Positions 17,686 through 63,483 of a DNA stretch of 64,000 nucleotides are shown in pieces (within the stretch, counting starts at the first letter, position 1; each line of letters starts with the position of its first letter). The translations under genes were made by a program, and so were the position numbers. The notes under the pieces are model-generated. The model saw nothing but the letters and a program-made list of their open reading frames with translations. It had not been told where the DNA came from and searched no databases. This DNA comes from Desulfomicrobium sp. ZS1. GTDB taxonomy: Bacteria; Desulfobacterota; Desulfovibrionia; Desulfovibrionales; Desulfomicrobiaceae. Where the stretch lies: NCBI RefSeq assembly GCF_024204645.1, contig NZ_CP100351.1, forward strand, positions 1,736,001 through 1,800,000, in the 5' to 3' direction.

Positions 17686-17693
17686 GCGCCCAT

Positions 17694-17738: not shown

Positions 17739-17772
17739 AACACGGTGGACGGCGGGTTAAGGAGGTTTTGTT

Positions 17773-18817: not shown

Positions 18818-19104
18818 AACCGTCTGAGGCGTTACGACTACACCGGGACGCCGTTCTCAATGCCGTCAATACACGCAAGGCCTGCAACGCCCGTGTCTTC
18901 GGCTCTGTCTTACGGGGAGAGGACCACGAAGGATCTGATTTGGACATCTTGGTGGACACTCTCCCAGGGGCATCGCTGTTTGACCTTGGAGGTTTGCAGG
19001 TTGACCTTGAAGAACTTCTGGGGGTCCAGGTTGACCTTGTCACGCCTGGCGACTTGCCGGAAAAATTTAGGAACTACGTACTCAGAGAGGCTCGGAAAAT
19101 ATGA
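18814..19104 (+). CDS. MNT-type nucleotidyltransferase domain protein
   Basis: The 96-residue protein is a minimal nucleotidyltransferase. The motif G30-S31 followed by D42-L-D44 (VFGSVLRGE ... GSDLDILVD) and a third acidic residue Asp74 (VQVDLV) form the polymerase-beta-type active site. Such proteins serve as antitoxins in HEPN/MNT (type VII) pairs by AMPylating or otherwise modifying the toxin. No HEPN gene is recognised next to it. The start is GTG 18814, overlapping the upstream stop; it overlaps the next gene by four bases (ATGA). Confidence 0.8.
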   Translation: MKPSEALRLHRDAVLNAVNTRKACNARVFGSVLRGEDHEGSDLDILVDTLPGASLFDLGGLQVDLEELLGVQVDLVTPGDLPEKFRNYVLREARKI

Positions 19105-27560: not shown

Positions 27561-27562
27561 CC

Positions 27563-43152: not shown

Positions 43153-44115
43153 ATGCCTTTAGATCTTTCAGACACTCTTGTTGTAGGAATATCAGCAACC
43201 GCTCTTTTTGATCTGAAAGAAAGCGACGCTCTTTTTCAAGAAACTTCAAAGTCAGATCCAGATAACGCAATCGAAATATATCGAAATTATATGATGGAAA
43301 CAGAGGATATCCCTTTAAATCATGGAACGGGGTTCCCTCTTGTCAATGCATTACTGAATTTGAATCAATACCAGAAAGAAAATGAACCTCCGCTAGTCGA
43401 AGTAGTTATAATGTCAAAAAATAGTCCAGACACTGGAATTCGAATTTTAAAATCTATACGTCATCACAAGGTAGCAATCACGCGATCTGCATTTACTGCT
43501 GGGGAAAGTGTTGTAGATTATCTCGAAGCTTTTGACGTAGACCTGTTTCTCACAACATCAATAAAAGATGCCCAAAGAGTTATTGATAGCAGGTTCTGTG
43601 CAGCAGCTGTCGTCAAAAACCCACCAGAAGGCATATCCAATATGCCAGACAATCAAGTCCGCCTAGCTTTTGATGGAGATGCTGTTATTTTTGATGACAG
43701 TAGCGAGATCGTATACAAAACTATGGGATTAAGCGAATTTCATAAGCAAGAAAATGACAATCATGACATCCCTCTTGCTGAAGGACCGTATGCAACTTTC
43801 TTAAAAAAGCTATCTCGACTTCAAGACAGGCTGCCAATGCGTGTAGAATACTCACCAGTAAGAATTGCTCTAGTCACGGCAAGAAATTCACCTGCTGAAT
43901 TACGAGTAATCAAAACACTTCGTCATTGGGGCGTGTATGTTGACGAAGCCTTTTTTCTTGGTGGTGTTGAAAAATCAAAGGTATTGAAAGCTTTTAAACC
44001 ACATATTTTCTTTGATGACCAAGAAATTCACCTTGAAGCAGCCGCAAAATCTGTCCCATCAGGCCGCGTTCCCTATGCCAGTGAATCTCCATTAAACACG
44101 CCTTCAGATGAGTGA
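43153..44115 (+). CDS. Cytosolic-type 5'-nucleotidase (PF06189 family)
   Basis: The 320-residue protein resembles cytosolic 5'-nucleotidase I: an N-terminal VVGISATALFDLKESDALF, LNHGTGFPLVNALLNLN, VEVVIMSKNSPDTGIRILKS, then ITRSAFTAGE, and the haloacid-dehalogenase-type acid pair in AFDGDAVIFDDSSEIVY. Members dephosphorylate AMP, IMP or dNMPs. It follows res by 27 bases in the same direction with a GAGG ribosome site, and precedes the GmrSD-like gene, so it is probably co-transcribed with the restriction genes. A defence role by nucleotide depletion is only inferred. Confidence 0.8.
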   Translation: MPLDLSDTLVVGISATALFDLKESDALFQETSKSDPDNAIEIYRNYMMETEDIPLNHGTGFPLVNALLNLNQYQKENEPPLVEVVIMSKNSPDTGIRILKSIRHHKVAITRSAFTAGESVVDYLEAFDVDLFLTTSIKDAQRVIDSRFCAAAVVKNPPEGISNMPDNQVRLAFDGDAVIFDDSSEIVYKTMGLSEFHKQENDNHDIPLAEGPYATFLKKLSRLQDRLPMRVEYSPVRIALVTARNSPAELRVIKTLRHWGVYVDEAFFLGGVEKSKVLKAFKPHIFFDDQEIHLEAAAKSVPSGRVPYASESPLNTPSDE

Positions 44116-44180: not shown

Positions 44181-46301
44181 ATGAAAGCCACCGAAGCCAA
44201 GCTGCTCACTTTTTTGCAAAAATCCACGCAGTTCATCATCCCCATCTACCAGCGCACCTACTCTTGGACGGAAAAACAGTGCCGTCAGTTGTGGGATGAC
44301 ATCCTGCGGGCAGGTTCAAACGACACGATAGCCGTGCATTTCATCGGCTCCATAGTCTACATTGAGCAAGGCCTTTCACAGGTCTGCTATCGGGCGCCTC
44401 TGCTGGTGATCGACGGGCAACAGCGCCTTACCACAGTCTCTTTGCTCATTGAGGCCTTGGCCCGCGTTCTTGGTGACAAAGAGCCTGTCCAAGGGTTCTC
44501 GGCCGCCAAACTACGCGACTACTACCTCACAAACCACCTCGAAAATGGCGACAACTTTTTCAAGCTGCTTCTCACGCAGACGGACAACGCTTCGCTCAAG
44601 GCCATTATCAAAAACAGCGAACAGCCTCAGGAGCCGTCCCTTCGCATCACACAGAACTTTGAACTGTTCGCCGATTGGATCAATGGTCTGAAAGGGGATC
44701 TCGTTCCAGTCTGCCAGGGTCTCGCCAAGCTCATGGTCGTGGACATCGCCCTTGCTCGCGACCAGGACAATCCCCAGCTCATTTTTGAGAGCATGAATTC
44801 GACGGGTAAAGAGCTGAGTCAGGCCGACCTGATCCGCAACTACATCCTCATGGGGCTGGAACCAACGCTGCAGACGAGGCTTTACGAAGACTACTGGCGA
44901 CCGATGGAGGTCGAATTCGGCCAGGAGGCCTACGACACGCTGTTCGACGGTTTCATGCGTCATTATCTTACTGTCCGCACCGGCGACATTCCACGCGAAC
45001 GCGAGGTCTATGACGCGTTCAAGGGTTACTCCCTGACCACTCCTGTTCAACAGGCGGGGATCGAAGCCCTGGTCAAAGAAATCCGCACGTTCGCCCGCTA
45101 CTTCTGCGCCATGGCCCTCGGCAAGGAGAAGGAACCCGCGCTCAAGCTCGCTTTCCACGATCTGCGGGAACTCAAAGTGGATGTGTCTTACCCTTTTCTG
45201 CTTGAGTTGTACTCCGACTATGACAACGGCCTGCTGAGCGTGGACGACTTCGTGGCTGCCGTGCGGCTCGTAGAGTCCTACGTGTTCCGCCGCGCCGTCT
45301 GCGCCATTCCCACAAACTCATTGAACAAAACGTTCGCCACGTTCGGCAAGGCACTGAAAAAGAACCGCTACCTCGAAAGCATTAGCGCCCATTTCCTATT
45401 GCTGCCATCATACCGCCGTTTCCCGAAGGACGAAGAGTTTCACCGCGACCTGCAAAACCGTGATCTCTACAATTTCCGCAGCCGCAGCTATTGGCTGCGG
45501 AGGCTGGAGAATCACGGGCGCAAGGAACGCGTGCCTGTGGACGAATATACTATCGAACACATCCTCCCGCAGAACCCGGAACTTTCCGCGCCGTGGCGTG
45601 AGGCGCTCGGGGAAGAGTGGCAACGCGTTCAGCAACAGTGGCTGCATACTCTCGGCAATCTCACGCTCACCGGCTACAATGCCGAGTACAGCGACCGCCC
45701 TTTTGTTGAAAAGCGCGACCGTGAAGGCGGTTTCAAGCAAAGTCCGCTCAAAATGAACGCAGGACTTGGAGATGTCGAAATCTGGAACGAAGCAGCAATT
45801 CAGAAGCGGGCAGATTCCCTTGCCACGCACGCAGTCAAAGTCTGGCAAGCTCCGGTTGTGGATTCAGCGGTCCTGGTGAACTATCGACCGGCCAAAGAGG
45901 CGTCACGGAGCGGGTACACGATTGACGACCATCCGTATCTGACCACGGGCAGTGACATGTACGGCACGATGATTCCTGAATTGTTCGAGGCGTTCCGCAA
46001 ACAGGTACTCGCCCTTGATCCGTGCGTTACGGAGGAGTTTCTTAAACTTTACGTGGCCTACAAGGCAGAGACGAATTTTGTAGATGTGGTGCCGCAGGCT
46101 AAGCGGTTGCGCTTGAGCATCAACCTGCCGTTTGCAGAGATCAATGACCCAAAAGGTTTGTGTCAGGATGTGACAAACCGTGGTCGCTGGGGAAACGGCG
46201 ATGTTGAGATCGGATTGAGTTCACACGAAGAATTGCCGTACATCATGAGCCTGATTCGACAGGCCTACGAAGCCCAGATGGGTAATGGCGGGCAAGCATA
46301 A
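44181..46301 (+). CDS. GmrSD-like DUF262/DUF1524 endonuclease with C-terminal DUF5655
   Basis: The 706-residue protein has DUF262 at the N-terminus (IPIYQRTYSW, HFIGSIVYI and the nucleotide-binding motif VIDGQQRLTT), a DUF1524 HNH-type nuclease domain (YTIEHILPQNP ... HTLGNLTLTGYNAEYS) around residues 450-530, and a C-terminal DUF5655 region. This single-chain GmrS-GmrD layout is known from type IV restriction enzymes that cut modified (for example glucosylated hydroxymethylcytosine) phage DNA. Catalytic His and the QR box are intact. AAGGA precedes ATG 44181. It follows the 5'-nucleotidase by 65 bases. Confidence 0.87.
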   Translation: MKATEAKLLTFLQKSTQFIIPIYQRTYSWTEKQCRQLWDDILRAGSNDTIAVHFIGSIVYIEQGLSQVCYRAPLLVIDGQQRLTTVSLLIEALARVLGDKEPVQGFSAAKLRDYYLTNHLENGDNFFKLLLTQTDNASLKAIIKNSEQPQEPSLRITQNFELFADWINGLKGDLVPVCQGLAKLMVVDIALARDQDNPQLIFESMNSTGKELSQADLIRNYILMGLEPTLQTRLYEDYWRPMEVEFGQEAYDTLFDGFMRHYLTVRTGDIPREREVYDAFKGYSLTTPVQQAGIEALVKEIRTFARYFCAMALGKEKEPALKLAFHDLRELKVDVSYPFLLELYSDYDNGLLSVDDFVAAVRLVESYVFRRAVCAIPTNSLNKTFATFGKALKKNRYLESISAHFLLLPSYRRFPKDEEFHRDLQNRDLYNFRSRSYWLRRLENHGRKERVPVDEYTIEHILPQNPELSAPWREALGEEWQRVQQQWLHTLGNLTLTGYNAEYSDRPFVEKRDREGGFKQSPLKMNAGLGDVEIWNEAAIQKRADSLATHAVKVWQAPVVDSAVLVNYRPAKEASRSGYTIDDHPYLTTGSDMYGTMIPELFEAFRKQVLALDPCVTEEFLKLYVAYKAETNFVDVVPQAKRLRLSINLPFAEINDPKGLCQDVTNRGRWGNGDVEIGLSSHEELPYIMSLIRQAYEAQMGNGGQA

Positions 46302-46391
46302 ACGCTGACATCAAGCCGTATGCGAAAGATGAGTATTCGGGATTGCCCGGAGCTTGTAGAAGGTCATAAAGGGACAGGTAAATTATTCACC

Positions 46392-47066
46392 ATGGGCAAT
46401 CCGAAACTCGCAACGCAGATTCTGGCCAAAAAATACGCCGACAAGGGCGACCCGGACGGCTGGTTCGAGGAGTTCTACGCGCAGGCCGATGGCGAGATCA
46501 AAAAAGTCTACTGGGCAGACCTTGAGCCCAATCCCATGCTGCTTGACTGGGTTGACAGGCATCCCCGGCAGTCAGGCCGCCGTGCGATCGTGGTTGGCTG
46601 CGGTCTTGGCGACGACGCCGAGGCTCTGCGGGAGCGCGGCTACGCGGTTGTCGCTTTTGACATCTCGCCTTCGGCCATCGACATGTGCCGCAGGCGCTAC
46701 CCGGGCAGTTCCGTGGAATACCTCGTCGCCGACCTTTTCGATCATCCCGGGCACTGGCTGCGCGGCTTCGACCTTGTGTACGAATGCAACACCATCCAGA
46801 TCCTCACTGGCCAAAATCGCGCCAGAGCCCTTGGCGCCATCGCGGAGATGGTCGCGCCGGGAGGCGAAATCGTGGTGTCCTGCCGCAGCCGGGAGATCGG
46901 CGACCACTCGCAGACATTCCCCATTGCCCTGGACCGGGGCGAAATCGACGGCTTCGTCCGGGCCGGGCTCATCGAGAAATACTTTTTCGCCTACGACGAC
47001 AATCAAGAGCCACCCGTTCCCCATTTCTTTGCGGTCTACACACGACCGCCCAAAATGAAGGCATAA
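46392..47066 (+). CDS. SAM-dependent methyltransferase, TPMT-like
   Basis: The approximately 224-residue protein has a class I methyltransferase fold: motif I VVGCGLGDDAEALRERGYAV, motif II VAFDISPSAIDMC, and the YLVADLF and FDLVYECNTIQIL blocks, similar to thiopurine S-methyltransferase relatives. It would act on a small molecule rather than DNA; no NPPY or DPPY motif is present. ATG 46392 is the first start consistent with the family, although the ribosome site is weak. It lies alone between the GmrSD-like gene and the PIN-like gene. Confidence 0.8.
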   Translation: MGNPKLATQILAKKYADKGDPDGWFEEFYAQADGEIKKVYWADLEPNPMLLDWVDRHPRQSGRRAIVVGCGLGDDAEALRERGYAVVAFDISPSAIDMCRRRYPGSSVEYLVADLFDHPGHWLRGFDLVYECNTIQILTGQNRARALGAIAEMVAPGGEIVVSCRSREIGDHSQTFPIALDRGEIDGFVRAGLIEKYFFAYDDNQEPPVPHFFAVYTRPPKMKA

Positions 47067-47231
47067 GGGGCGGGTAAATCATTCCAATTTCTGAACAAAC
47101 ACTTGTGTCATACATATCCCGTCCGTTATATCCCCACTGCGTCGTTTACCATGACCAAACTCCGTGAAATCGCCGCTCCTGGCCACACCTGAACACCTCC
47201 GCCCACAGACATGGCCATGAAGGAGGAATGA

Positions 47232-47825
47232 TTGCGCACCAACTTCGTCCTTATCGACTACGAAAACGTCCATCTGGAAGCACTGACCGGCTTGGACGCC
47301 GAACATTTCAAGATTCTCCTTTTCGTCGGAGCCAATCAGACAAAGCTGCCCTTTGAACTCGCGGCTGCCGTGCAGAAACTGGGCAACCGTGCTGAATACG
47401 TGAAGATCTCCGGCAACGGATCCAATGCTCTGGATTTTCATATCGCCTTCTATGTCGGGCAGCTCGCTGCCCAGGATCCAAAGGCCTATTATCACATCAT
47501 TTCCAAGGACAAGGGGTTTGATCCGCTGATCCAGCATCTTCGAAGCAGGAAGATCTCAATCGCGCGTTCCAGTTCCATCGCCGACATCCCCCTGCTCAAG
47601 GCGTCCAATGCCAAGACCGCCACGGAAAAACTCGACGTAATCGTCGCCAATCTCAAACAGCGCAAAACGGGAAAGCCCCGCACCATCAAAACGCTCTCCA
47701 GTACTATCAATTCACTGTTCCAGAAACAGCTCGCTGATGACGAACTCGCGTCGCTTCTGGCTGAAATGCAAGGGAAGGGCTGGATCATCTTCAATGAAAA
47801 CAAGGTTTCTTATGCTCTGGGCTGA
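47232..47825 (+). CDS. PIN-like (NYN-type) domain protein
   Basis: The 197-residue protein begins FVLIDYENVHLEAL, with the aspartate-rich first strand of PIN/NYN nucleases. Further acidic residues are in GSNALDFHIAFYVGQL and HIISKDKGFDPLIQHL, giving a plausible metal site. The C-terminal 70 residues look like a small winged-helix or helical module. The start is a TTG at 47232 behind a strong AGGAGG; an ATG four bases earlier is out of frame. It may be an RNase; the partner and target are unknown. Confidence 0.75.
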   Translation: MRTNFVLIDYENVHLEALTGLDAEHFKILLFVGANQTKLPFELAAAVQKLGNRAEYVKISGNGSNALDFHIAFYVGQLAAQDPKAYYHIISKDKGFDPLIQHLRSRKISIARSSSIADIPLLKASNAKTATEKLDVIVANLKQRKTGKPRTIKTLSSTINSLFQKQLADDELASLLAEMQGKGWIIFNENKVSYALG

Positions 47826-48210
47826 ATCTGGGCAAAGAGCCAGGCACGCATACCTACAAGGACATCATCAGCGAGCGCCTTATCTGTGCTCCGGGGCAAC
47901 TTCGCCATGGCGGACACTGATCCTGGACTATCGCCGGACAAGCCCCTACCCCATGTGCCATTTGCAATGTCCAGATAATCCCAACAGCATGGGACAATCT
48001 CCAAACTTTGGCTGGAAAAATATTGGCAGTCATGCGTATTTCGGAAAGGACGACTTTTGTCATTCTCATCTCATTCCAGCTGGGAAATGACGCCACGCAA
48101 AAACTCAAACGCCGGCCACAAGTCCAACCGCGAATAGTGAACAAGCAACTTGCTTCTCGACATTCTGGGAAAAATCAAATTCCTCTCAACCTTTAATTCG
48201 GAGGCCTCTC
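47826..48210. other. Gene-free stretch between the PIN-like and lipoprotein genes
   Basis: About 385 bases with no credible gene. The open frames here overlap the PIN-like gene out of frame or lack ribosome sites. No hairpin terminator with a T-tract is seen. The last bases carry TTCGGAGG for the lipoprotein gene. Confidence 0.5.
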
Positions 48211-48729
48211 ATGTTCCGCCAGTTCCTTCTTTTCTTCTTCCTCTTCGCCCTAGCCATCAGCACCGGTTGCTCTACAAAATCCCAGTTCAACCAAGTCAGT
48301 GACGCTCAAAACCAATGCCCGCCGTACTTTAGCATCGGAGAAATCAAGGATTCCAGCAACTACTCGCCTGGCAAGAACGATCCAGCCATTGAACCCTCAG
48401 AGATGATGCGTTCCGCTTTGAAAAATGAACTGACCAAAAAAGGATATTTTGCTGAAAAGTCCGAAAATGTCTCCACGATCAATATTGAAATCCTCAACTA
48501 CGCGCCAGGCAACGCTTTTGCCAGATGGCTCTTTCCTGGCGCTGGCGCATCAAAGCTGAAGATCCAAACCGCCCTTGTTGATTGCAAAAATATCGAAATT
48601 GCCAATATTCCCATTGACCGCAGCATTGCGGCAGGCGGTGGCTACACGATTGGAGCATGGGAGTATGTGTTCACAGATGTCGCTGAACGTCTGGTTCAAG
48701 ATTTGGAAAAGAACGTTTTGAAGAAGTAG
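48211..48729 (+). CDS. DUF4410-like lipoprotein
   Basis: The 172-residue protein has a lipoprotein signal peptide with the lipobox AISTGC (Cys20), so it is anchored to a membrane and faces the periplasm. The mature part resembles the DUF4410/YajG-like fold: an acidic region, SALKNELTKKGYF, the beta segment INIEILNYAPGNAFARWLFPG, and GGGYTIGAWEYVFTDVAERLV. GGAGG precedes ATG 48211. It ends near the start of the phosphatase-ADP-ribosylglycohydrolase gene but is probably functionally unrelated. Confidence 0.75.
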   Translation: MFRQFLLFFFLFALAISTGCSTKSQFNQVSDAQNQCPPYFSIGEIKDSSNYSPGKNDPAIEPSEMMRSALKNELTKKGYFAEKSENVSTINIEILNYAPGNAFARWLFPGAGASKLKIQTALVDCKNIEIANIPIDRSIAAGGGYTIGAWEYVFTDVAERLVQDLEKNVLKK

Positions 48730-48758
48730 TGTTCATTGATCAATTGAGAGTTACACTC

Positions 48759-50228
48759 ATGACGCAGACACCAATCGAAAACGCCTATTGGATCATCCCG
48801 GGAAAATTCCTTGCTGGGGAATACCCTCGCACTCTTGAGGAGGAATCCTCGATTTCAAGGATCACGGCGCTGGTGAAGGCTGGTGTCGGGGTGTTCATCG
48901 ACCTGACCACCCCGGCGGACGGCCTCAAGGCCTATCAGGGCATCGTCAACTTGATCGATGGGACGATCGAATGCTGCATGTTTCCGATTCCGGATGTGAG
49001 CGTTCCAGGATCGCGGCAAACGACACGTGATATTCTCGACCTGATCGACAACTCACTGGCCCAGGGCAAAGGGATCTATCTGCACTGCTGGGGTGGCATC
49101 GGGAGAACGGGAACGATTGTCGGGTGCTGGCTTGCCAGGCGTGGCTTTGCCGGAAAAGCTGCCTTGGAAAAGCTGTCCAGCCTGTGGCGATGGTGCCCCA
49201 AATCAAGGTACCGCCAATCCCCGGAAACTGAGGAACAGCGGAACTACATTGTGACCTGGAATGAAGATGCGCCCGATGCTCATCATGACGCCATTCTCTC
49301 CCGCGCCCAGGGCTGCCTCATGGGACAGCTTGCAGGAGATTCCCTGGGGAGCCTGGTGGAATTCAAGTCTGCCGAAGAGATACGCAGCCTTTATCCATCC
49401 GGGCTACGCGAACTTGCCGATGGAGGCACGTGGAACACGCTGGCTGGCCAACCCACAGACGATTCGGAACTGGCCCTCATGCTTGCCCGGTCGTTAGTGG
49501 AGCATGGCAGGTTCGACAGATACAGCGCTCGAAATGCGTACCGATTCTGGTACGACTCGCATCCGTTTGATTGCGGGGCAACCATTGCGGCAGGCCTCAG
49601 GGATCAGCCCAATTTCGAGAGCCAAGCCAACGGAGCGCTCATGCGCGTCAGCCCGCTGGGCATTTTTGGAACGCATCACAGCCTGTGGGATGTTGGCTAC
49701 TGGGCAAAAAAAGACGCCTCCATAACCCATCCGCACCCGGTCTGCTGCGAAGCCAATGCCCTTTTCGCCATGGCCTTGTCCCGAGTCATCCGGAGCGGGT
49801 GTTCCCCTCAGAGTCTCTATGCCGGCATGCTGCTCTGGTCGGAGGAAATGGACGTTCACTCCGCCTTGAAAGGCGCTCTCGCGGATGCAGCCACGTCTCC
49901 ACCCAAAAACTACGGACGCCACCAAGGGTGGGTACTCATCGCCTTCCAGAACGCCATCTGGCAGCTGCTCCATGCCCCAAACCTTGAAGAAAGCGTTGTC
50001 GACACGGTCATGCGCGGCGGCGACACCGACACCAATGCCGCCATTTGCGGCGCTCTTCTTGGGGCCGTGCATGGCCTTGAAGCAGTGCCCGCGCAATGGA
50101 GGGAAAAAGTACTCTCCTGCAGACCTGAACAGCGCGCCGGAGTAGCACACCCCCGCCCCGAAGTTTTCTGGCCTGTGGATGCTTTGGAACTGGCGCAACA
50201 GCTTGTCGGAAATACCGGACAGGCCTGA
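48759..50228 (+). CDS. Fusion of dual-specificity phosphatase and ADP-ribosylglycohydrolase
   Basis: A 489-residue two-domain enzyme. Residues 1-165 are a cysteine phosphatase: HC110-WGGIG-R116-TG is the CX5R loop and Asp79 (PIPDVSVPG) is a candidate general acid. Residues 180-480 are an ADP-ribosylglycohydrolase: RAQGCLMGQLAGDSLG, TDDSE (233-237), NGALMRVSPLG and the metal motif GDTDTNA (421-427). Both active sites look intact. A GAGAG ribosome site favours ATG 48759. It is followed by pnuC and a nadR-like gene, which points to NAD/ADP-ribose metabolism. It might remove a phosphate and ADP-ribose from one substrate in turn. Confidence 0.9.
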   Translation: MTQTPIENAYWIIPGKFLAGEYPRTLEEESSISRITALVKAGVGVFIDLTTPADGLKAYQGIVNLIDGTIECCMFPIPDVSVPGSRQTTRDILDLIDNSLAQGKGIYLHCWGGIGRTGTIVGCWLARRGFAGKAALEKLSSLWRWCPKSRYRQSPETEEQRNYIVTWNEDAPDAHHDAILSRAQGCLMGQLAGDSLGSLVEFKSAEEIRSLYPSGLRELADGGTWNTLAGQPTDDSELALMLARSLVEHGRFDRYSARNAYRFWYDSHPFDCGATIAAGLRDQPNFESQANGALMRVSPLGIFGTHHSLWDVGYWAKKDASITHPHPVCCEANALFAMALSRVIRSGCSPQSLYAGMLLWSEEMDVHSALKGALADAATSPPKNYGRHQGWVLIAFQNAIWQLLHAPNLEESVVDTVMRGGDTDTNAAICGALLGAVHGLEAVPAQWREKVLSCRPEQRAGVAHPRPEVFWPVDALELAQQLVGNTGQA

Positions 50229-50286
50229 CCGCTGGTTCATTGCCGCCCCCTCCCATGATCACAATTCTTAGCGCAAGGATCAAAAT

Positions 50287-50862
50287 ATGACCGGCATCGA
50301 AGCTCTCGCCGTGCTCTTCGGCCTGCTTTGCGTCTGGTTCTGCATCCGGCAGAACATCTGGTGCTGGCCGACCGGCCTCATCCAGGTCACGCTGTACATC
50401 TATATTTTTTATGATGTGAAGTTGTATTCGGACATGATCCTGCAGGTGGTCTTCGTCGTCCTGCAACTCTACGGCTGGTATCACTGGCTGCATGGCGGAC
50501 AAAACCGGAGTTCTTTGCCCCTTTCCCGCCTTGATGCACGAGACCTGATCTTGTGGGTGATTGCCGCGCTGGCGGGAACGGGCGCCTGGGGCTGGACGAT
50601 GACAACACACACTGACGCCTCCGTCCCCTACTGGGACGCGTTCACGACCGTCGCAAGCCTCATTGCCCAATGGCTGATGACCAGAAAGAAGATCGAGTCA
50701 TGGTACTTCTGGATAGCCGTGGATGTGGTCGCCATCGGTGTGTACGCGTATAAATCCCTTCTTCTCACATCGGGTCTTTACCTGGTCTTCCTTATGATGG
50801 CGGCTTCAGGCCTTATTGTCTGGCGAAAGGATTTCACCTCTCAATCGGAGTCGCCGGCATGA
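50287..50862 (+). CDS. pnuC: Nicotinamide riboside transporter PnuC
   Basis: The 191-residue inner-membrane protein has about seven hydrophobic helices. Family blocks seen are the N-terminal [20 protein letters not shown], the [21 protein letters not shown] segment with the signature WxxW, and the C-terminal half-repeat [18 protein letters not shown]. It carries nicotinamide riboside by facilitated diffusion, driven by NadR-type phosphorylation inside. AAGGA precedes ATG 50287 and its stop overlaps the nadR-like start by four bases. Confidence 0.92.
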
Positions 50863-51875
50863 AGACCGGCCTGACCATCGGAAAATTCGCACCGCTGCAC
50901 AAGGGTCACCAGTTTCTGATCGAGCACGCACTGGCGGAAACCGACTACCTGATCGTCATCGTGTACGATTCCCCTGAGGTCACGACGATACCCCTGCCGG
51001 TGCGGGCAGGATGGATCAGAAAGCTCTATCCGTCAGTGGAGGTCATTGAGGCTTGGGACGGCCCGACCATCGTCGGTGACACTCCGGAAATAAGAAAACT
51101 CCATGAGGATTTCCTCCTGAGCATCCTTGCAGGCCGGAAGGTCACGCATTTCTTCTGCAGTGAATTTTACGGGGCTCATGTCAGCAAGGCACTGGGGGCC
51201 ATGGACTGCCGCGTTGATGAAGGCCGCGTTGCCATCCCCATTTCGGCCACAACGATCCGAAACGCGCTCTTTGAAAACCGGCATTTCGTTGTCCCTGAAG
51301 TCTATAGGGATCTCATCACCAAGGTTGTTTTCCTCGGTGCCCCTTCCACGGGCAAGACAACACTCGCCGAATCCTCGGCGCATAACATGGGAACTGTATG
51401 GATGCCTGAGTACGGACGGGAGTACTGGGAAAAACATCAGCAGGATCGCCGCCTGACGCTCAGACAACTCCTGGAAATCGCGCAAACCCATATCCAGCGT
51501 GAGGACGAGAAAACCCTCGAAGCAAACCGCGTCCTTTTTATCGACACCGACGCGACGACAACCTGGAATTTTTCGATTCAATACCACGGCAAGGCCGACC
51601 CAAGACTCACCCAACTCGCGGACAGCACGCTAAGCCGCTACGATCTCTTTTTCCTCTGCGATGACGACATGCCCTATGATGACACGTGGGATCGCTCAGG
51701 TTCTGCGGACAGAACAATCTTTCAAAAACAGATACGCGCAGACCTCATCCGCAGACGCATCCCCTTCTTCACCCTCCGGGGAACACTCGAAGAACGCATG
51801 CGAATCGTGATGCAGATTCTCAAACATTTCGACAAGTATTCTTCGCTGGCAGATAACCTGATTTCGACGCGATAG
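50859..51875 (+). CDS. nadR: NadR-like bifunctional NMN adenylyltransferase / ribosylnicotinamide kinase
   Basis: The 338-residue protein joins a nucleotidyltransferase domain (GKFAPLH14-KGH17, and ISATTIR at 128-134) to a P-loop kinase domain (Walker [10 protein letters not shown] at 160-168, FIDTDATTT further on). It would phosphorylate nicotinamide riboside taken up by PnuC and adenylate NMN to NAD. The N-terminal helix-turn-helix repressor domain of Enterobacteria NadR is absent, so it is enzymatic only. Its start overlaps pnuC (ATGA). Confidence 0.92.
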
Positions 51876-51920
51876 CACTCAGCACAAATTTAACCCAGCT
51901 TGGCGACTGAATAATCTTTT

Positions 51921-52262
51921 TTACCGCAACCCGAACGCAAGTTGATGTGCATAATCAGACGCTTTTGATCGAACCCTAGGCATCTCACGATTTTCAAGCA
52001 ATTCATCCAAAATGTCTAAGTTGACTGGACGTAGTGTTACCTTGCCCCGTGGTTGCGTTGTGACTGGATCATTGATCACAATAGTGGCCTCTCTTGCAGG
52101 CCTGTCCAGGGTTGGATAAAGAATTGCCGTCTCACTCTTTGGGCCAGGATCTTGGCTCAGAGCATATATTGATAACTGATACAACATGTCTCTATTCAGT
52201 GTTTTCTCCCACAGGTTCCGATACTTAGCATCCAACAGCCTCACCATTGTATTTCCTTTGAA
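51921..52262 (-). pseudogene. mcrC: mcrC, 3' fragment (separated by an IS3 element)
   Basis: The last 113 codons of mcrC: FKGNTMVRLLDAKYRNLWEK onward, with the nuclease-domain lysine in LDAKYR and DMLYQLSIYALS. The frame continues exactly from the 5' fragment at 53546-54520 once the insertion and one copy of GAT are removed. Within the element the frame is open for a few codons, but without a proper start this fragment should not be translated on its own. Confidence 0.92.
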
Positions 52263-52354
52263 GATAGAAGTGGCCCAGGAAATTTGCACAAGCCTTTAGG
52301 TGGAAACTCTGCTAGCCCGGACACCTTCAAACGAAATTGATCAGGGAGCAGAGA

Positions 52355-52657
52355 ATGACCAAGCGGACGAGACGGAAGCACTCAGCAGAATTCAAGGCCA
52401 AGGTAGCGTTAGCGGCGATGGCCGGGGACAAGACACTTGCCGAGTTGGCGCAACGTTTTGAGGTGCATCCAAACCAGATTACCGAATGGAAGCGACAGCT
52501 CAGCGAGCGGGCTGCCGATGTCTTTGGCAAGTCCGCCGGGAGTGAGCCACCCGTGGATTTGAAAGTGCTCCATGCCAAGATCGGCCAACTGACGCTGGAG
52601 AACGATTTTTTAGAAAGCGCACTCAGCAAGGTGGGATTGCTGAGCGCAAAGCGATGA
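52355..52657 (+). CDS. IS3-family transposase OrfA
   Basis: The 100-residue helix-turn-helix protein ([40 protein letters not shown]) ends in a leucine-zipper-like segment ([18 protein letters not shown]). It binds the element ends. ATG 52355 has GGGAG upstream. It overlaps orfB by four bases (ATGA), so OrfB may be made by re-initiation or as an OrfAB frameshift fusion. Confidence 0.93.
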
Positions 52658-53484
52658 TCGACCGCGAGCACGAGGTTTCAATCAAGCGGCAGGCCGAACT
52701 GGTCGGGATAAGTCGCGGTACCGTGTACTATCAGCCTCGGCCTGTGAGTGCCGCCGATTTGGCGCTCATGCGCCGCATTGACGAGCTGCATCTTGAGCAT
52801 CCTTTCATGGGTGCCCGGATGCTTCGGGATCAACTGAATCGCTCAGGCGTCGCTGTTGGGCGTAAGCATGTCGGCTCGTTGATGGCACGCATGGGGATTG
52901 CTGCGCTGTACCGGAAGCCCGGCACCAGCAAGAAGCATCCTGGGCACAAGGTATATCCATATCTGCTAAGAGGACTGCTCATTGAAAGAAGCAATCAGGT
53001 TTGGGCTCTGGATACGACCTACATCCCGATGGCCAAGGGTTTCGTGTATCTGACGGCAGTCGTGGATTGGGTCAGCCGAAAGGTCTTGGCGTCAAAGATA
53101 GCGATCACCCTGGAGGCTTGCCATGCGGTCGATGTGCTTCAGGAAGCCTTTCGCCGCTATGGCACTCCGGAAATCGTGAACACGGATCAAGGGAGTCAGT
53201 TTACGGCGATCGAGTTTGTAACGGCTGTCAAGGACAGGGGTTGCAAGCTGAGCATGGATGGTCGAGGAGCCTGGCGTGACAACGTTTTCGTTGAACGCCT
53301 TTGGAAGTCGGTAAAGTACGAACGGGCTTATCTGCACGCCTACGACACGGTGAGCGATGCCCGGAAGTCGATCATGGAATACATGAATTGGTACAATCAA
53401 AAGCGGCCGCATTCACGGTTGGGCAAGAAAACGCCTGACGAGGCTTACGTCGAACGAATGTCGCCAGTGAGAGTGGCAGTGTAA
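52654..53484 (+). CDS. IS3-family transposase OrfB (DDE integrase)
   Basis: The 276-residue catalytic subunit has an HTH_21 segment ([17 protein letters not shown]) and the rve integrase core with the DDE triad: Asp in [13 protein letters not shown], Asp in VNTDQGSQF and Glu in [14 protein letters not shown]. The C-terminal [15 protein letters not shown] motif is typical. No frameshift or stop is present, so the element may still be active. Confidence 0.95.
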
Positions 53485-53545
53485 GAAGAGCGGAGATTCC
53501 ACTTAAGAAACGGGCAAACGTGTTCAAACGAACTGAGCCACTTCT

Positions 53546-54520
53546 GATAGCGAAGTCAGGGCGGAGGGACGGAGAACGATGGTTTTGCGGATTCTTCTCT
53601 GCCTGGTACTTCATCATTCCATAAAGCTTGAATTCGTCTTGAACCTTATGATCTGTCAGATAATCGCTCATGAAGCGTGACAACAGAGTTTGGAAGAAAC
53701 GATTCATATCAAACAAGAAGCCTTCGAACTTGACCACATCCTGATCGGCCATTGAAATCCCTTGGCCTTCCATCAAGATTTTAATTATACGGAAAGCTGG
53801 CTGGTAAGCACCGACAAGTCGATTCTCCTCACGGTCAAGTCGTTGGAAACTGTGGTTGTCAAGCTGAACCTTTGACACTTCTGAAAGAAAGGATTTGTTA
53901 AGCCTTCTAAGTTTGCTTTTGAGAATAGTGTTGTCGCAGATATTTGTAGCCAGACTTAACCCCGCGCCAAGAATTTGATTAGGCAAACAGTCGATGTCGC
54001 GTGGATAGTATACACAAGGCAGCCTGCCGGTGATGACGCCACCGTTAGCGGCTATTTGATTGATATCAATCAAGCCACGAGGAGAGGACAGCCCCTCTCT
54101 TTGGCGTTTATATTGTCTACAAAGGCCCCTGCTGACTAGGTTCATGACTTCCATCGCCAGTTGAGCGATGAGAATCTCTTGGAATGCATCCTTTTCAAGA
54201 TCATAATCAACGTCTGAATAAAGGTGTAAATCCTTCAGGCCGTAAGCGTACTTCACCAACCTCAAGAGCTTGAGGCCCTGAATCTTTGGCTGGATAGTGA
54301 TACGCAATGGGCCTAGATTGATTCGCCCGACATAAGAAGATGCTCCGAGAGAGATGCCATTTCGAGTCTCGATCACAGAGAGAATGTTGGCCTGCGTGAG
54401 CTTCTCGGCGGTGATCCGTGCGGGATCGCCTGACTCAAAATAGACCGGCTGCTTATCCGGCCATTGCAGAGGCTGACTGTTTTCCCATTCGTTGAGACTT
54501 ATGATGAGGGTTTTTTGCAT
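53546..54520 (-). pseudogene. mcrC: mcrC, 5' fragment (interrupted by an IS3 element)
   Basis: 325 codons of the McrC nuclease subunit: N-terminal part with SSYVGRINLGPLRITIQPKI, KLLRLVKYAYGL, RGLIDINQIAANGG and the start of the nuclease domain at SLRPDFAI. The frame then runs into the IS element and ends in it after about 57 foreign residues. The complete gene would have encoded 438 residues. McrC supplies nuclease activity to the McrB motor, so the system is probably inactive here unless the element leaves. Confidence 0.93.
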
Positions 54521-56805
54521 TACGCCTCAACATTTTGATCATTATCGTCATCAACGCTATCATCATGAATTTCCAAGGCTTCCTGTTCTGCCTGTACGGT
54601 TTTCGGTGATGAAGCGATTTCAGGGTCCATTTCAAGAAGGATTCGAACCAAGTCATCTTTCTTCGTTGGAGAGAATAGGTCATTTCGAACCTGCTGAGTT
54701 TCGACATCAACAAGTTTTTTTAAGATGCTGTGAAGTGCGGTGTAATCTTCATAGCAATATTCCTCCAAGAGTGGGATGATGTCCTCCCGAAGTGCGCGGG
54801 CAAAACCTGAGAATGATCGTATTGGGTTGCTGCCATCCATAAGATATGAATGCCCTATCTGCAAATTTCGCGCATCACGTCCGACGTGTTGGCAGATTTT
54901 ACGGTTAAGCGAGTCAAGCCACGGTCCCAGCGGCAAACCTTCAATCATGGCTTCGCCCAGCACAGACGAGTCAGGCATGAGTTCAATAAAACCAAATCGC
55001 CTTCTGAGCGCAGCATCAAGCAAGGCAATCGATCGATCTGCGGTATTCATCGTTCCTACTACAAAGACGTTTGCAGGGACGACGAATGACTGTGCGGAAA
55101 GCGGGAGCGTTATGGATTTTCCGCGTTTGTCTTTTTCAAGGATTGTCAGAAGTTCTCCGAAGATCCTTGGAATGTCTCCACGGTTAATTTCATCGATAAG
55201 AAGGTAAAAATTCTTGTCTGGTCTTTTCTGGGCATCTTCGCATAGCTGCTTGAAAATCCCATTTTTTGAAACAAAAACCATTTTGCTTTCGTGCAACTCT
55301 GGCCTGTAGCCTTCCAAAAAATCTTCATATCCGTAAGCAGGGTGAAAGCAACACATGCGGACAGGCTTATTTTCTCCCGGCCCGGGCTGGATGTGTAATT
55401 TCTGCTCGTTATCGAGCTGATTGAATGGTTTACCGTACCAGGAAAGCGCTGCAAGATCTTTTGTTGCAACGTCGGCCCAATAGGTCTTACCAGTCCCCGG
55501 AGGCCCGTAGAGAATGACTTGCTTCTTTCTTTCGAGCACCGACTGAATTCGCCCAGGGATACCAACCAACTTGTTGCTAGCTGTTTTGATTTGGACTTCT
55601 GGGACTAAGGGAGCCTCTAGAATGCGCCGTTCGATTTCCAAGAGATTCTCAGGGTACTTGCCAAGTTTATGGACAGTGGTTTGGAGACCTTCCTTTACTG
55701 GTTCCTGCCATGATTCAAGAGATAGCCATTCGACGGGTCGCTTGTGTGGGAATTCCGCTTTGGCATCGTAGTAATACTCACCAGTAACCTTGCCAATACC
55801 GAGAATTATCATGCCGTTAGCAGCGACAACAACTTCTCCTTCTTTTATTTCGGCAACGAATTTGAAGAGCTGATTGGATTGTCTTGAGGATATGTGTGCT
55901 GGCTTGGGGTATTTCTCCAACATCAATTTCTTGAGTTCCTCTTTATGCTCAGAGTTGTAATTAACCCAAGAAAGATCACCCAAATCATTCCAACCGACAG
56001 ATATAAAATTCCCCTGTTTCATTTCAAGCCAATAATTTGAGTCATATCCGTCTGTTGTGCCTACGCGCCAGTATGAATAAGGGTTGCCGTACAGTTCGTT
56101 TAAGGAATAGGTTAGATGATTGATATGCATTCCAAGATGTTTTGCGATCTGTTGAAAAGTATAAGCAGCAATGTAACGACCGTCTTTGTCAGACGGTGCT
56201 TTTTGTAACATTCTGGTCAACATGTATCTCTGATAGACGGGGGAATGAAAGTCATCAAGAATGTGTGGGTGCAGCAAAGAAAAATATTTATGACCCCACG
56301 CAAGTGTACTAACATCTGGTGCTTCTTTATCGAGACTGTTTTGAAGATTTACGTAATCGTCAAAACTCGGACTTCCAGGCATCTGCTTAAGAAGATCATC
56401 GCCGTTGATGAGTTGATCTCGATGTTTACGGGCAAAGCCAATGGCTTCTTCAACAGTCAATTCACGCTGGTTGCTGGGATGACCTGTCATCCATTTTCCG
56501 GTTTCTTTTCTTTTATAGAGACAAAACTTGAGCGCACTGCCACCAGCAATGCTACCGAAAATAGCCGGTAACTCCTTATCATCTTTGAATTCAAGCCAGT
56601 AAACCAGACTATCTTTGGTCGCGTGACTATGCATAAAATCAAGGAGTGCTTCACCGTCTAGCGAACGCAATATGTCAGGACCAAACTTATCTCTGAAATT
56701 TTTATAACAAACAGCAAGATTTTCATTTGAGAGGAGCTTTCCATCGTTATGAAGCATGTCTCGCATATCACGTATTTTTTTTTCGACAAAAGTATGTAGA
56801 CTCAC
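54520..56805 (-). CDS. mcrB: McrB-type GTPase/AAA+ subunit of a methyl-specific restriction system
   Basis: The 761-residue protein has an N-terminal region of about 250 residues of unknown fold, a putative modified-base reader (residues about 255-370: NFISVGWNDLGDLSW ... GEVVVAANGMIILGIGKV, EVE/PUA-like), and the McrB AAA+ domain with Walker A GPPGTGKT (434-441), LLIDEINRGDIPRIFGELLTILE and the signature MNTADRS (586-592). McrB with McrC cuts DNA containing methylated or hydroxymethylated cytosine. The stop shares one base with the mcrC start (TAATG). Intact, but the partner is broken. Confidence 0.93.
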   Translation of the reverse strand: MSLHTFVEKKIRDMRDMLHNDGKLLSNENLAVCYKNFRDKFGPDILRSLDGEALLDFMHSHATKDSLVYWLEFKDDKELPAIFGSIAGGSALKFCLYKRKETGKWMTGHPSNQRELTVEEAIGFARKHRDQLINGDDLLKQMPGSPSFDDYVNLQNSLDKEAPDVSTLAWGHKYFSLLHPHILDDFHSPVYQRYMLTRMLQKAPSDKDGRYIAAYTFQQIAKHLGMHINHLTYSLNELYGNPYSYWRVGTTDGYDSNYWLEMKQGNFISVGWNDLGDLSWVNYNSEHKEELKKLMLEKYPKPAHISSRQSNQLFKFVAEIKEGEVVVAANGMIILGIGKVTGEYYYDAKAEFPHKRPVEWLSLESWQEPVKEGLQTTVHKLGKYPENLLEIERRILEAPLVPEVQIKTASNKLVGIPGRIQSVLERKKQVILYGPPGTGKTYWADVATKDLAALSWYGKPFNQLDNEQKLHIQPGPGENKPVRMCCFHPAYGYEDFLEGYRPELHESKMVFVSKNGIFKQLCEDAQKRPDKNFYLLIDEINRGDIPRIFGELLTILEKDKRGKSITLPLSAQSFVVPANVFVVGTMNTADRSIALLDAALRRRFGFIELMPDSSVLGEAMIEGLPLGPWLDSLNRKICQHVGRDARNLQIGHSYLMDGSNPIRSFSGFARALREDIIPLLEEYCYEDYTALHSILKKLVDVETQQVRNDLFSPTKKDDLVRILLEMDPEIASSPKTVQAEQEALEIHDDSVDDDNDQNVEA

Positions 56806-56907
56806 TGATTTTGCCTCATTTTATTAAATCTGTACTTGACTTTCTTTGTCGATAATAAAACAGCATAAATAGAAATTTTGATGAAGGAATGTTCGGAGCA
56901 AAAAATC

Positions 56908-57741
56908 ATGACACAAGATAATCGAGGGACACGCGAAATCAGCAGCAATGAAATGCTCGACTGGAACGACCGAATCATCCCTGTTGCCCACAGCAAAGGC
57001 GGAGTGAAAGCTGTTGCGCACCCCTACGACAACTTGATCCGCACCGGCATCACGGCCTGGCCGCCACCGGAAATCGTTCAGAAATTCTACAAAAGCAGGC
57101 AATCCCGGGCCTTCGAAGGAAAAGACCTCGAAATCGCCACCTCGGGCCTGGGCTACTACTGCGACCTGCAATCGCTGCATAGCGAAGACGCCATCACGTG
57201 GTCGGTGTTCGGCACCATCGCCCGCTCCCCGCAAACGATCCTTGAGAACTGGCTCAAGCACCTGTTCAGACTGATCGACCTGCCGGATGCAAACACAGAC
57301 AACGCAGAAATCTTCCTCTGGCGCCGCATCCCCCACCCCGACACCCTGGTTTCCGGCGGTCCGGAAATCGATGTGGGCATCACTACGTCAAACACGGTGA
57401 TTCTTTGTGAAGCCAAATGGCTGTCGGGCATCGGAGCCGCCCAAGGCAAAGCCAAGGACAAGGACCAGATCCAACTGCGGGGTGAATTCCTGGCCAAATA
57501 CGGGACTGCCATATTTCCGGGCAGGCTTCACAAAGTCGTTTTGGGCATAAGCCTGCTTCCAGACGCATTCAAGGATACAACGCCGGAAGGCGTCAGTTTC
57601 CGGACAACCTCCTGGCAACATCTGAGCGCCCTCACATCCCATCCTCTGGCGAATGAACTGGCTCTCTATTTCGAATGGAAAAGGGGCAATTCCTTAACAC
57701 CGAAAAATGCGAAACACAAAAATGCAAATTCTGCCATCTGA
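56908..57741 (+). CDS. Probable PD-(D/E)XK nuclease-like protein
   Basis: About 277 residues. The segment GGPEIDVGITTSNTVILCEAKW fits the D ... (D/E)xK core of a restriction-type nuclease fold (Asp in EIDV, Glu-Ala-Lys). The rest is not recognised. ATG 56908 has GGAG at nine bases; ATG 56881 is possible but without a ribosome site. It is divergent from mcrB with about 100 bases between starts. GC-rich, unlike the next gene. Confidence 0.65.
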   Translation: MTQDNRGTREISSNEMLDWNDRIIPVAHSKGGVKAVAHPYDNLIRTGITAWPPPEIVQKFYKSRQSRAFEGKDLEIATSGLGYYCDLQSLHSEDAITWSVFGTIARSPQTILENWLKHLFRLIDLPDANTDNAEIFLWRRIPHPDTLVSGGPEIDVGITTSNTVILCEAKWLSGIGAAQGKAKDKDQIQLRGEFLAKYGTAIFPGRLHKVVLGISLLPDAFKDTTPEGVSFRTTSWQHLSALTSHPLANELALYFEWKRGNSLTPKNAKHKNANSAI

Positions 57742-61851: not shown

Positions 61852-62160
61852 GCGATCTCCGTTGGTCTGCGGTTAGGTCTGGAACCCGACCCTTCGCGGG
61901 TCAGTGCACTTGAGATCACTTGTACCAATTCCGCATGATCACTGGCCATCGACAACACGATGATCGTCCCGCGAGGCTGGGAAGATCCCACGTTTTTCCA
62001 CCTCACGCGCCCCGCATCTACTCCCCCCCCAAGTATTCGCAGGGATGCTCCCAACAGTCCGGGACGATCCAGCCTATCACGATTGCCGCGCCGAGCCACA
62101 AACTGCACAAAGAATGCGTCACACACATCCAAACCTTCGTCGCAACCAGCGAGGAGCACG
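61852..62160. other. Divergent promoter region between AAA and ADP-ribosylglycohydrolase genes
   Basis: 309 bases without a credible gene. It should contain promoters for both directions. A homopolymer of eight C lies at 62023-62030. The ADP-ribosylglycohydrolase frame is open through much of it but the encoded peptide is low-complexity and has no start signal. Confidence 0.5.
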
Positions 62161-63483
62161 ATGAACGAAAGCGCACAGCATCAAGTCCCGTATGAAGAAA
62201 TCCTCCACGCCATCGCCATGGACGCCCATGACGGGCTAGCTAAACCTGGGGATATTTCGCCAGCCAAACCTGAACATATTGACCACCCCGATACGCGCTG
62301 CGGCTTACCGATCCATGCCTACGCCACCCACGAGTCCAGCAACCGCAAGCCCCGGAGCCCCCGAATGAACGAGACGCGTCAGATCAACGCCAACATACTC
62401 CACCAACTGTTTGAAACCAAAGCCATACGGCTGGAGCGCGGCGCAATATTCGACCATGCGCTTGCCCCCAAAGGTCCGGATTTCGACTTTGATCGTGTGG
62501 AGGGGATGCTCTTGGGCGCGGCCATCGGCGACTCTCTTGGAAATACTTCGGAATCAAGACTTCCACTCATCAGACGGCAACTCCACTGTGAAATCCGCGA
62601 CTATTTGGCCCGCGATGGGACAGGCTGCGCCAAGGGGTATCCCAGTGACGACACGCAGCTGACATTCTGGACCCTGGAGCAGCTGATCGAGGACAAGGGC
62701 GAGTTCATACCGGAGCACCTGGCCCGCAAATTTGCGGAAAGCGGCCGGATTTACGGCATCGGCCAGACCGTGAGAGGCTTTCTGAAAGCGTACAAATCGG
62801 GGCAGCCCTTGCATGAATGCGGGCCGCACTCCGCCGGCAACGGCGCACTCATGCGCATCGCGCCCATGCTCATCCCGCACCTGCGCCACGGCGGCACGGA
62901 CATTTGGATCGACACGGCCCTCTCGGCCATGATGACCCACAATGACCATGCGTCCACTTCCTCATGCCTGGCTTTCACGGCCATGCTCTGGGAACTGCTG
63001 GACATGAAGACTCCCCCGCCGCCACACTGGTGGCCGGAAAGATACGCAGCCATCACCGCCGATCTTCAAGGCAGGATCGGGTATACCCCGAGAAGCGGAT
63101 GTATGAAGTACTCCTTCGATGGCCCGTTGCATCAGTTTGTCAGCGAAAAGCTGGCCTGGGCGCATGCCAATAACTTGAGCGCCATGGAAGCCTGCGAAAT
63201 CTGGCATTCCGGAGCATATCTGCTGGAGACCGTGCCCAGCGTCCTGTATATCCTCATGCGCCACGGCCATGATCCGGAAGAAGCGTTGGTGCGGGCAGTC
63301 AATGACACCAAAGACAACGACACCGTCGCGTCCATCGTAGGCGCTGCTATCGGCGCGCTCCACGGCAGGAAAGGCCTGCCGGATCGCTGGATTGAAGGAC
63401 TTGCAGGCAGGACCAGAGGGACGGATGACGGCCAGGTATTCAGACTCATATCCAAGGCCCGCCTCGAATTTTGGGAAAAATGA
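62161..63483 (+). CDS. ADP-ribosylglycohydrolase family protein
   Basis: About 440 residues. After an unrecognised N-terminal extension of roughly 68 residues, the family fold begins: FDFDRVEGMLLGAAIGDSLG, YPSDDTQLTFW (metal-binding Thr-Asp-type acidic pair), SAGNGALMRIAPM and VNDTKDNDTVASIVGAAIGALHG, where the usual GDTDT is KDNDT. It would hydrolyse ADP-ribose from proteins or nucleic acid, or a related N-glycoside. ATG 62161 has GAGGAG upstream; ATG 62365 (MNETRQ) is an alternative that removes the extension. It is divergent from the AAA-PcfJ pair. Confidence 0.88.
   Translation: MNESAQHQVPYEEILHAIAMDAHDGLAKPGDISPAKPEHIDHPDTRCGLPIHAYATHESSNRKPRSPRMNETRQINANILHQLFETKAIRLERGAIFDHALAPKGPDFDFDRVEGMLLGAAIGDSLGNTSESRLPLIRRQLHCEIRDYLARDGTGCAKGYPSDDTQLTFWTLEQLIEDKGEFIPEHLARKFAESGRIYGIGQTVRGFLKAYKSGQPLHECGPHSAGNGALMRIAPMLIPHLRHGGTDIWIDTALSAMMTHNDHASTSSCLAFTAMLWELLDMKTPPPPHWWPERYAAITADLQGRIGYTPRSGCMKYSFDGPLHQFVSEKLAWAHANNLSAMEACEIWHSGAYLLETVPSVLYILMRHGHDPEEALVRAVNDTKDNDTVASIVGAAIGALHGRKGLPDRWIEGLAGRTRGTDDGQVFRLISKARLEFWEK

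Follow-up and report, generated by a model that had tools for sequence, protein, structure and literature searches.

A phosphatase-ADP-ribosylhydrolase fusion in a defence island of Desulfomicrobium: candidate core of an ADP-ribose erasing system with an optional NAD salvage pair

Introduction

Host systems centred on an ADP-ribosylglycohydrolase (ARG) have been predicted to counter viral ADP-ribosylation, and the section describing them gives a coupled phosphatase for little over 55% of their neighbourhoods, most commonly of the rhodanese-phosphatase (R-P) type (PMC9503650, section 3.8). According to the same source, WYL or Nudix regulators (~42%), chaperones, nucleases and ARPP are carried as well (PMC9503650). 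Here we describe a gene for a phosphatase fused to an ADP-ribosylhydrolase, followed by the genes for PnuC and NadR, on a stretch of 64,000 nucleotides from Desulfomicrobium sp. ZS1 (contig NZ_CP100351.1, positions 1,736,001 to 1,800,000; in the following referred to as the window). The pairing of an ADP-ribosylhydrolase with a rhodanese-type phosphatase is an already published prediction, and the fusion is a putative variant fitting its core. We tentatively regard it, placed in a defence island, as the core of a system of this predicted ARG/rhodanese-phosphatase kind that erases ADP-ribose, with PnuC-NadR as an optional part, and hold this reading with slightly less than even confidence.

In common with the ARG-centred R-P systems, the window joins the hydrolase to an R-P type phosphatase within a single protein, which lies in a conflict setting and has a candidate nuclease as partner, and no ADP-ribosyltransferase or sirtuin family was recognised among the 28 window proteins covered by the Pfam scan. 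Unlike these systems, it has PnuC-NadR after the fusion, and its hydrolase belongs to a different branch than the one beside most of the fetched phosphatase relatives. Compared to DraG, the fold, the metal motifs and an Asp aligned with D97 agree, whereas the fusion reaches 124 bits against the TIGR02662 cut-off of 337 bits, carries a phosphatase, and has no recognised DraT (PF07357 showed no match in the own genome, though none in the controls either). Tri1-type immunity ADP-ribosylarginine hydrolases share the superfamily, and a toxin-reversing role would be plausible also for the fusion; in contrast to them, it reaches 91.5 bits against the NF041672 cut-off of 490 bits, and an effector partner was not recognised. 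The literature search yielded no paper that joins an ADP-ribosylglycohydrolase with both PnuC and NadR or with an inositol monophosphatase (IMPase), and none on the cassette of fusion, PnuC and NadR. The main text of PMC9503650 mentions neither PnuC nor inositol nor a transporter, in a search that did not include MavL.

Results

The fusion gene (48759-50228, plus strand) codes for 489 amino acids from an ATG at 48759 and is supported by Pfam and NCBIfam matches, by sister homologues and by purifying selection. A longer frame starts with a GTG at 48729 and comprises 499 amino acids (48729-50228); the ATG is the likelier start, since the fusion frame of one of the two copies in the sister genome G002 (G002:C49) begins at about this position. 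The first-pass annotation had described a two-domain enzyme with intact CX5R phosphatase and ADP-ribosylglycohydrolase sites, which agrees with Pfam matches above cut-off for both domains and with the conservation of the motifs.

The phosphatase domain is predicted to be tyrosine-phosphatase-like with an intact C-x5-R motif. It matches PF22785 Tc-R-P (3.6e-15), PF22784 PTP-SAK (7.6e-14) and PF22741 PTP-NADK (1.1e-9) above the cut-offs and DSPc below the cut-off, and tyrosine/dual-specificity phosphatases of solved structure are matched as well. By reading of the sequence, the active-site elements (48984-49112, plus strand) are a PIPD loop at 48984-48995 and the motif HCWGGIGRTG at 49083-49112. 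In an alignment of 37 rows the Cys is conserved in 36, the Arg in all 37 and the Asp of PIPD in 33.

The ADP-ribosylhydrolase (ARH/DraG) domain (49311-50093, plus strand; residues 195-455) matches PF03747 ADP_ribosyl_GH with 4.7e-58, above the cut-off, and comprises the motifs TDD (49455-49463) and GGDTDT (50016-50033). Both Asp residues of TDD, the TH pair and D-x-D-T are conserved in 102/102 rows of the window's branch, with five long-branch rows set aside. DraG represents the nearest solved structures, by sequence as well as by fold, and the Asp of the fusion aligned with the residue altered in the DraG D97N structure is conserved in 98 of these 102 rows; D97 itself has a role with arginine substrates. 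In the predicted structure of the fusion, the hydrolase part shows a pLDDT mostly above 90 and the phosphatase part mostly below 50, and the domain geometry is not readable. Altogether, the own genome has five PF03747 matches.

The cassette of fusion, PnuC and NadR is real and conserved. Its identity of 85.5% over 3109 bases with the block in a second species, together with ratios of non-synonymous to synonymous substitution (dN/dS; Nei-Gojobori, window versus G002) of 0.13-0.26 across the three genes (fusion mostly 0.14-0.22, PnuC 0.14, NadR 0.13), argues against a chance arrangement. For the phosphatase part of the fusion alone the ratio is looser, with 0.30-0.39.

A survey of 395 genomes of the phylum (E 1e-15) found the phosphatase in 26 of them, the own included, and the best 20 of 30 non-self matches were fetched. 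With distances measured between match ends, a hydrolase is fused to the phosphatase at three of the 20 loci (L192, L197 and L210 in reversed order), lies within ~50 bases at eight, 1.2-1.4 kb off on the same strand at two, and 4.4 kb off on the other strand at one; at the remaining six none was found. A link of this phosphatase family to putative ADP-ribosylhydrolases is thus general. Among 108 neighbouring proteins, from 19 of the 20 loci, ARPP-1, which marks the predicted systems, occurred in two and WYL in three. The hydrolases at these loci are 25-35% identical to that of the window, and in L192 the phosphatase shows 56% identity to the window's, the hydrolase only 27%. The window hydrolase itself belongs to a branch with relatives of 53-67% identity in many phyla, and for this branch a link to the phosphatase is not general.

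Further partners were observed on both sides. On a Sphaerotilus plasmid (L212), a phosphatase of 47% identity comes after the genes for Sir2 and for a macrodomain protein of the MavL type (E 3.9e-121), and relatives of the window-type hydrolase are fused to a domain of the IMPase family at seven loci in total (genome, plasmid and viral). For the six of these fusions that were scanned, the best model was CysQ in four and HisN in two, all below the cut-off; CysQ-like IMPase domains are known for 3'-phosphoadenosine substrates. IMPase-like open reading frames near L074 and L091 failed the tblastn search at 1e-5 and were left out of the counts. Hence, a single phosphatase family has three predicted kinds of ADP-ribosyl hydrolase as neighbours, and two unrelated putative phosphatase folds occur with a single hydrolase branch. 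Because the partners vary in this way (a deeply diverged hydrolase branch and a MavL macrodomain on the one side, CysQ/HisN-like domains on the other), the data suggest that the phosphatase works in ADP-ribose chemistry, and this variety speaks for the tie that the first-pass annotation had drawn.

Two of these neighbourhoods comprise additional genes. In L212 (1644-7519) the row consists of WYL, AAA, Sir2, the MavL-type macrodomain hydrolase, the phosphatase, MoxR and vWA, a candidate ADP-ribose conflict system. In L130 (861-4160) and L037 (6161-9265) two genes come after the IMPase-hydrolase fusion, one for Nudix and then another conserved one; in L130 these two form one frame.

Among 61 genomes, full-length fusions of the window type amount to three, one in the own genome and two in G002, and both G002 homologues are 88-89% identical to the window fusion. 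A hydrolase fragment of 77% identity in G008 lies at the edge of a 4.2 kb contig, so that its fusion status is not visible, and the remaining 3.7 kb of this contig contain neither PnuC nor NadR. In the first of the G002 copies (G002:C9) the order is fusion, PnuC, NadR and a nuclease-like gene; NadR overlaps PnuC, and the partner overlaps NadR, by ATGA. The second (G002:C49) comprises a GmrSD gene, the fusion and a nuclease-like gene, which starts 3 bases past the fusion stop, and is free of PnuC and NadR.

A comparison of the window with G002:C9 by blastn gave matches at 48768-51873 (85.5%) and 56900-57693 (87%). Since the match resumes at the latter position, a block of ~5 kb with McrBC and an IS3-type element splits NadR from its partner in the window; it is missing at the corresponding point in G002:C9. 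The block (51876-56877, without assigned strand) was delimited by this break in collinearity and by Pfam/NCBIfam matches to McrB and McrC, and contains McrC pieces, the IS3-type element at 52337-53484 and McrB on the minus strand. Beyond it, the nuclease-like gene (56878-57741, plus strand, 287 amino acids) is 87% identical to L025 and 84% identical to L024 at the nucleotide level. Together with the junctions in G002, this places the natural end of the operon, as predicted from the sequences, at this gene, which refines the first-pass annotation in the same way as the likelier start of the fusion does.

The protein has a D...EAK pattern that by eye resembles PD-(D/E)XK. It and two homologues showed no match in Pfam, one homologue none in NCBIfam, and a single-sequence scan revealed no viral relatives; the structure model calculated from the single sequence reached a pLDDT of 31 and was unusable. 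The family occurs in three of 101 relatives, namely the own genome, G002 (twice) and G003. In G003 its contig measures 4.5 kb; an HNH protein and a Nudix-like gene precede it there, and no fusion was found.

PnuC, the nicotinamide riboside transporter (50287-50862, plus strand), starts after a gap of 58 bases from the fusion stop and matches PF04973 (8.2e-61), TIGR01528 above the cut-off and the PnuC structure 4qtn (1.3e-15). NadR (50859-51875, plus strand), combining a nicotinamide mononucleotide adenylyltransferase and a ribosylnicotinamide kinase, matches PF13521 AAA_28 (2.3e-35) and PF01467 CTP_transf_like, both above cut-offs, as well as the NadR-type enzyme 9x6f (1.2e-28). Its match to TIGR01526 (1.8e-49) is nevertheless below the cut-off (168.7 versus 341 bits), and a DNA-binding domain was not matched in the Pfam/NCBIfam scan. 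The genes overlap by 4 bases (ATGA, 50859-50862), which agrees with the translational coupling noted in the first-pass annotation. Together, PnuC and NadR are predicted from their families to convert external nicotinamide riboside to NAD. The salvage pair is probably not the host's sole route to NAD, as NadA is present in the genome, and it would likely be an add-on.

The NAD genes had been proposed as part of a module with the fusion, and the first-pass annotation had named a fusion gene found mostly without them as the refuting case. By this criterion the NAD link, as part of a general module, fails outside one genus. They follow the fusion in the own genome and in G002:C9, i.e. at two of three window-type copies, all within one genus. 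Outside this genus the link is lost: a tblastn search (E 1e-5) found PnuC/NadR at none of 119 loci of hydrolase relatives (80 genome and 39 viral loci, many with flanks below 10 kb), and the 20 phosphatase loci yielded none either. A 72-residue NadR-like match in L046, seen in a laxer search, failed at this threshold and was not counted. NadR is present in two of the 61 relatives and in three of the 395 phylum genomes, the own included; the two other NadR-bearing phylum genomes show no hydrolase or phosphatase match nearby, and one of them has a PnuC-like match. The idea that PnuC-NadR belongs to the system in general was consequently rejected, and the pair looks like an addition that is rare and specific to this lineage, its meaning being uncertain.

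It may even be a mere passenger, i.e. a mobile salvage pair that landed in the island with no functional tie to the eraser, and we consider this an evenly balanced question. PnuC stands beside NadR in all four plasmid records examined out of 26 with a NadR match, the plasmids being unrelated, and the pair is found in two distant viral contigs; neither these four stretches nor the viral contigs contain a hydrolase or phosphatase match. The PnuC-less fusion copy of G002 and the absence of the pair from other hydrolase and phosphatase loci point in the same direction. On the other hand, the pair follows the fusion in identical order in two species, in G002:C9 it is flanked by the fusion and the nuclease-like gene, with both later junctions being ATGA overlaps, and it is under purifying selection at a synonymous divergence (NG86 dS) of ~0.75. 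From other salvage pairs with both genes and the ATGA overlap, that of the window differs by lying next to an ADP-ribose eraser within a defence island and by its order, which is opposite to three of the four plasmid pairs. On a Leptolyngbya plasmid (L231, 6989-9676) a NadR-PnuC pair, with a NadR 59% identical to that of the window, has genes for WYL and Csc3 as neighbours.

A phage origin of NadR was rejected. Phage matches reach at most 34% identity (15 of 430 listed), compared to 54-60% for bacterial and plasmid enzymes, and a scan of viral contigs gave only the two distant loci.

The host genome is a single contig of 3.87 Mb, in which an integrase adjoins the transfer-messenger RNA (tmRNA) gene, with the island downstream. 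After the integrase follow three calcineurin-like phosphoesterases, a vWA protein, Zorya, a NERD protein, a type III restriction-modification (R-M) system, a 5'-nucleotidase and GmrSD, and then the fusion cassette, McrBC with the IS3-type element, an AAA protein and a second ADP-ribosylhydrolase. The cassette is thus placed in a predicted tmRNA-linked defence island with Zorya, type III R-M, GmrSD and McrBC, so that the defence setting of the first-pass annotation stands. The GmrSD-type (DUF262) restriction protein with DUF5655 (44181-46301, plus strand; PF03235, PF07510, PF18899) has a 92% homologue directly upstream of the PnuC-less fusion copy G002:C49. GmrSD-type genes also adjoin window-type hydrolases in L082 (6829-10924, 56% identical to the window GmrSD) and L051 (8126-10939, 28%), an arrangement that echoes the window and G002:C49.

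The second ADP-ribosylhydrolase (ARH2; 61960-63483, plus strand, 507 amino acids) belongs to a different branch and matches PF03747 with 1.2e-52. Its ~180 N-terminal residues are without a Pfam match, and its neighbours are the AAA protein and a PcfJ-like protein. A homologue of 54% identity stands directly upstream of the phosphatase-hydrolase pair in L199 (tblastn), and a distant one of 25% directly upstream of the hydrolase in L048.

As to the other neighbours, the IS3-type element, recognised by eye from two overlapping frames, is inserted within mcrC, whose end lies at 51921-52289, and has probably broken McrBC. Zorya is of type I (ZorA, B, C and D by PADLOC models; 24496-32044), the three calcineurin-like phosphoesterase genes cluster near the island integrase (16816-20644), and the PF06189 5'-nucleotidase (43153-44115) is located upstream of GmrSD; the published ARG systems list a 5'-nucleotidase of the HAD type. 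An Rfam search of 46000-54000 gave no match. A scan of 47000-52400 resulted in three promoter-like sites (3.2 expected) and nine terminator-like sites (5.5 expected, standard deviation 2.2), and was not used.

Discussion

Taken as a whole, the picture drawn by the first-pass annotation holds for the domains, their sites, the coupling, the island and the link to ADP-ribose. It does not hold for the NAD module beyond the genus, and the pairing of eraser and phosphatase had been predicted before (PMC9503650).

Several observations weigh against the fusion as the core of an eraser of the published kind, besides the absence of the NAD genes from the loci of its relatives. Among the best 80 of at least 497 relatives of the hydrolase, the phosphatase is adjacent in one (L101) and an IMPase-family fusion occurs in three, so that the other 76 genome loci show neither; several relatives lie among sugar-metabolism-like genes, as judged by eye from the names. 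The optional features of the template are missing among the 28 scanned window proteins, namely a WYL or Nudix regulator and ARPP, and an adjacent peptide-binding chaperone was not seen (a VIT-vWA gene lies 25 kb off at 21718-23874, and TY-Chap was not searched by name). The coupling of a Sir2 gene in L212 departs from the published ARG template, and a biochemical study of the fusion was not found in the literature. Finally, a quick tree places the window hydrolase far from the other hydrolase branch, and quick trees suggest a repeated pairing of phosphatase and hydrolase, yet in the approximately unbiased (AU) test a tree joining the two branches scored 5.8 log units above the free quick tree (p 0.62). 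These tests comprised 44 rows, with the long-branch rows L197, L206, L207, L208 and ARH2 and other rows left out, and rejected neither a joining of the window fusion with L101 (p 0.44) nor a single origin of the IMPase fusions (six of seven, p 0.26). Since the joined tree scored higher and fewer origins are compatible with the AU tests, a swap of the hydrolase domain is not claimed to be proven by the trees.

If the fusion is nevertheless the core of an ADP-ribose eraser, its hydrolase domain would cut ADP-ribose off a macromolecule, most likely from an arginine-type linkage as in DraG, given that the nearest structures are those of DraG and that the Asp aligned with D97 is conserved. The phosphatase domain would remove a phosphate from the ADP-ribosyl substrate or product, and the variety of partners leads us to expect that the two steps act in sequence. 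The nuclease-like gene would be the operon partner, with its position seen in the sister genome and its activity assumed. In the lineage of the window, PnuC-NadR may be an optional cassette between the two; as the gene order is conserved in two species, it might be tied to the eraser, importing nicotinamide riboside and refilling the NAD that ADP-ribosyltransferases or NADases spend in conflict.

Substrates with a phosphate next to ADP-ribose do exist, as can be seen from an ARH-like enzyme that undoes the ADP-ribosylation of RNA at its 5'- and 3'-phosphate ends (PMC11833690) and from human ARH1, which detaches RNA chains that the T4 transferase ModB has attached to protein (PMC10468400). A repair of nucleic-acid ends could be built on this, in which the hydrolase takes ADP-ribose off phosphorylated ends of RNA or DNA, the phosphatase clears the exposed phosphate and the nuclease-like protein acts as partner. 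The RNA-end activity would fit, a Deinococcus PARG gene is described together with a ligase and an HD-phosphatase/kinase (PMC11833690), and CysQ-like IMPase domains replace the phosphatase in other fusions. We regard end repair as unlikely, since neither a ligase nor a KptA-type transferase is among the 28 scanned proteins, the nearest structure is the protein-acting DraG, and the CysQ models remained below their cut-offs, with HisN best in two of six.

A defence by NAD refill, in which the set restores NAD after abortive systems of the NADase type have fired, is quite improbable. The making of NAD from nicotinamide riboside by PnuC-NadR would be in line with it, and the reconstitution of NAD by phages exists (PMC12774641), NAD refill being a possible outcome that both have in common. 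However, the 28 window proteins of the Pfam scan include no recognised NADase, NadR is nearer to bacterial and plasmid enzymes than to the phage enzymes listed, and the phage pathway NARP1, as far as it is described there, uses other enzymes (Adps/Namat), which were not searched for in the window. A purely metabolic glycoside hydrolase branch with no link to ADP-ribose, as would fit a number of close relatives that are solitary beside enolase-superfamily, amylase-like and similar genes in Caldilineaceae (names by eye), is very unlikely in view of the conserved ARH catalytic motifs, the DraG-like fold and the pairing of the phosphatase partner also with a MavL macrodomain.

Conclusions

As an extension of the preferred reading, the fusion as core of an ADP-ribose eraser, a self-contained repair operon for phosphorylated ADP-ribose damage is conceivable, though quite improbable. 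In it, the phosphatase would strip the phosphate of the scar, the hydrolase would free the target, the nuclease would hit the attacker and PnuC-NadR would refill NAD; such a scar could be the residue that remains when an RNA chain joined through NAD-RNA has been trimmed, or an ADP-ribosylated phosphate end. If this were true, the diversity of partners (R-P, CysQ-like, macrodomain) would point to a two-step chemistry that is general and so far unrecognised.

The variety of partners is new here and narrows the question why ADP-ribosylhydrolases join phosphatases to a testable claim, namely that the phosphatase acts on a substrate derived from ADP-ribose. With one fusion copy with and one without NAD salvage, G002 moreover represents a natural pair within one genome, in which it may be asked whether the refill of NAD helps an ADP-ribose eraser.

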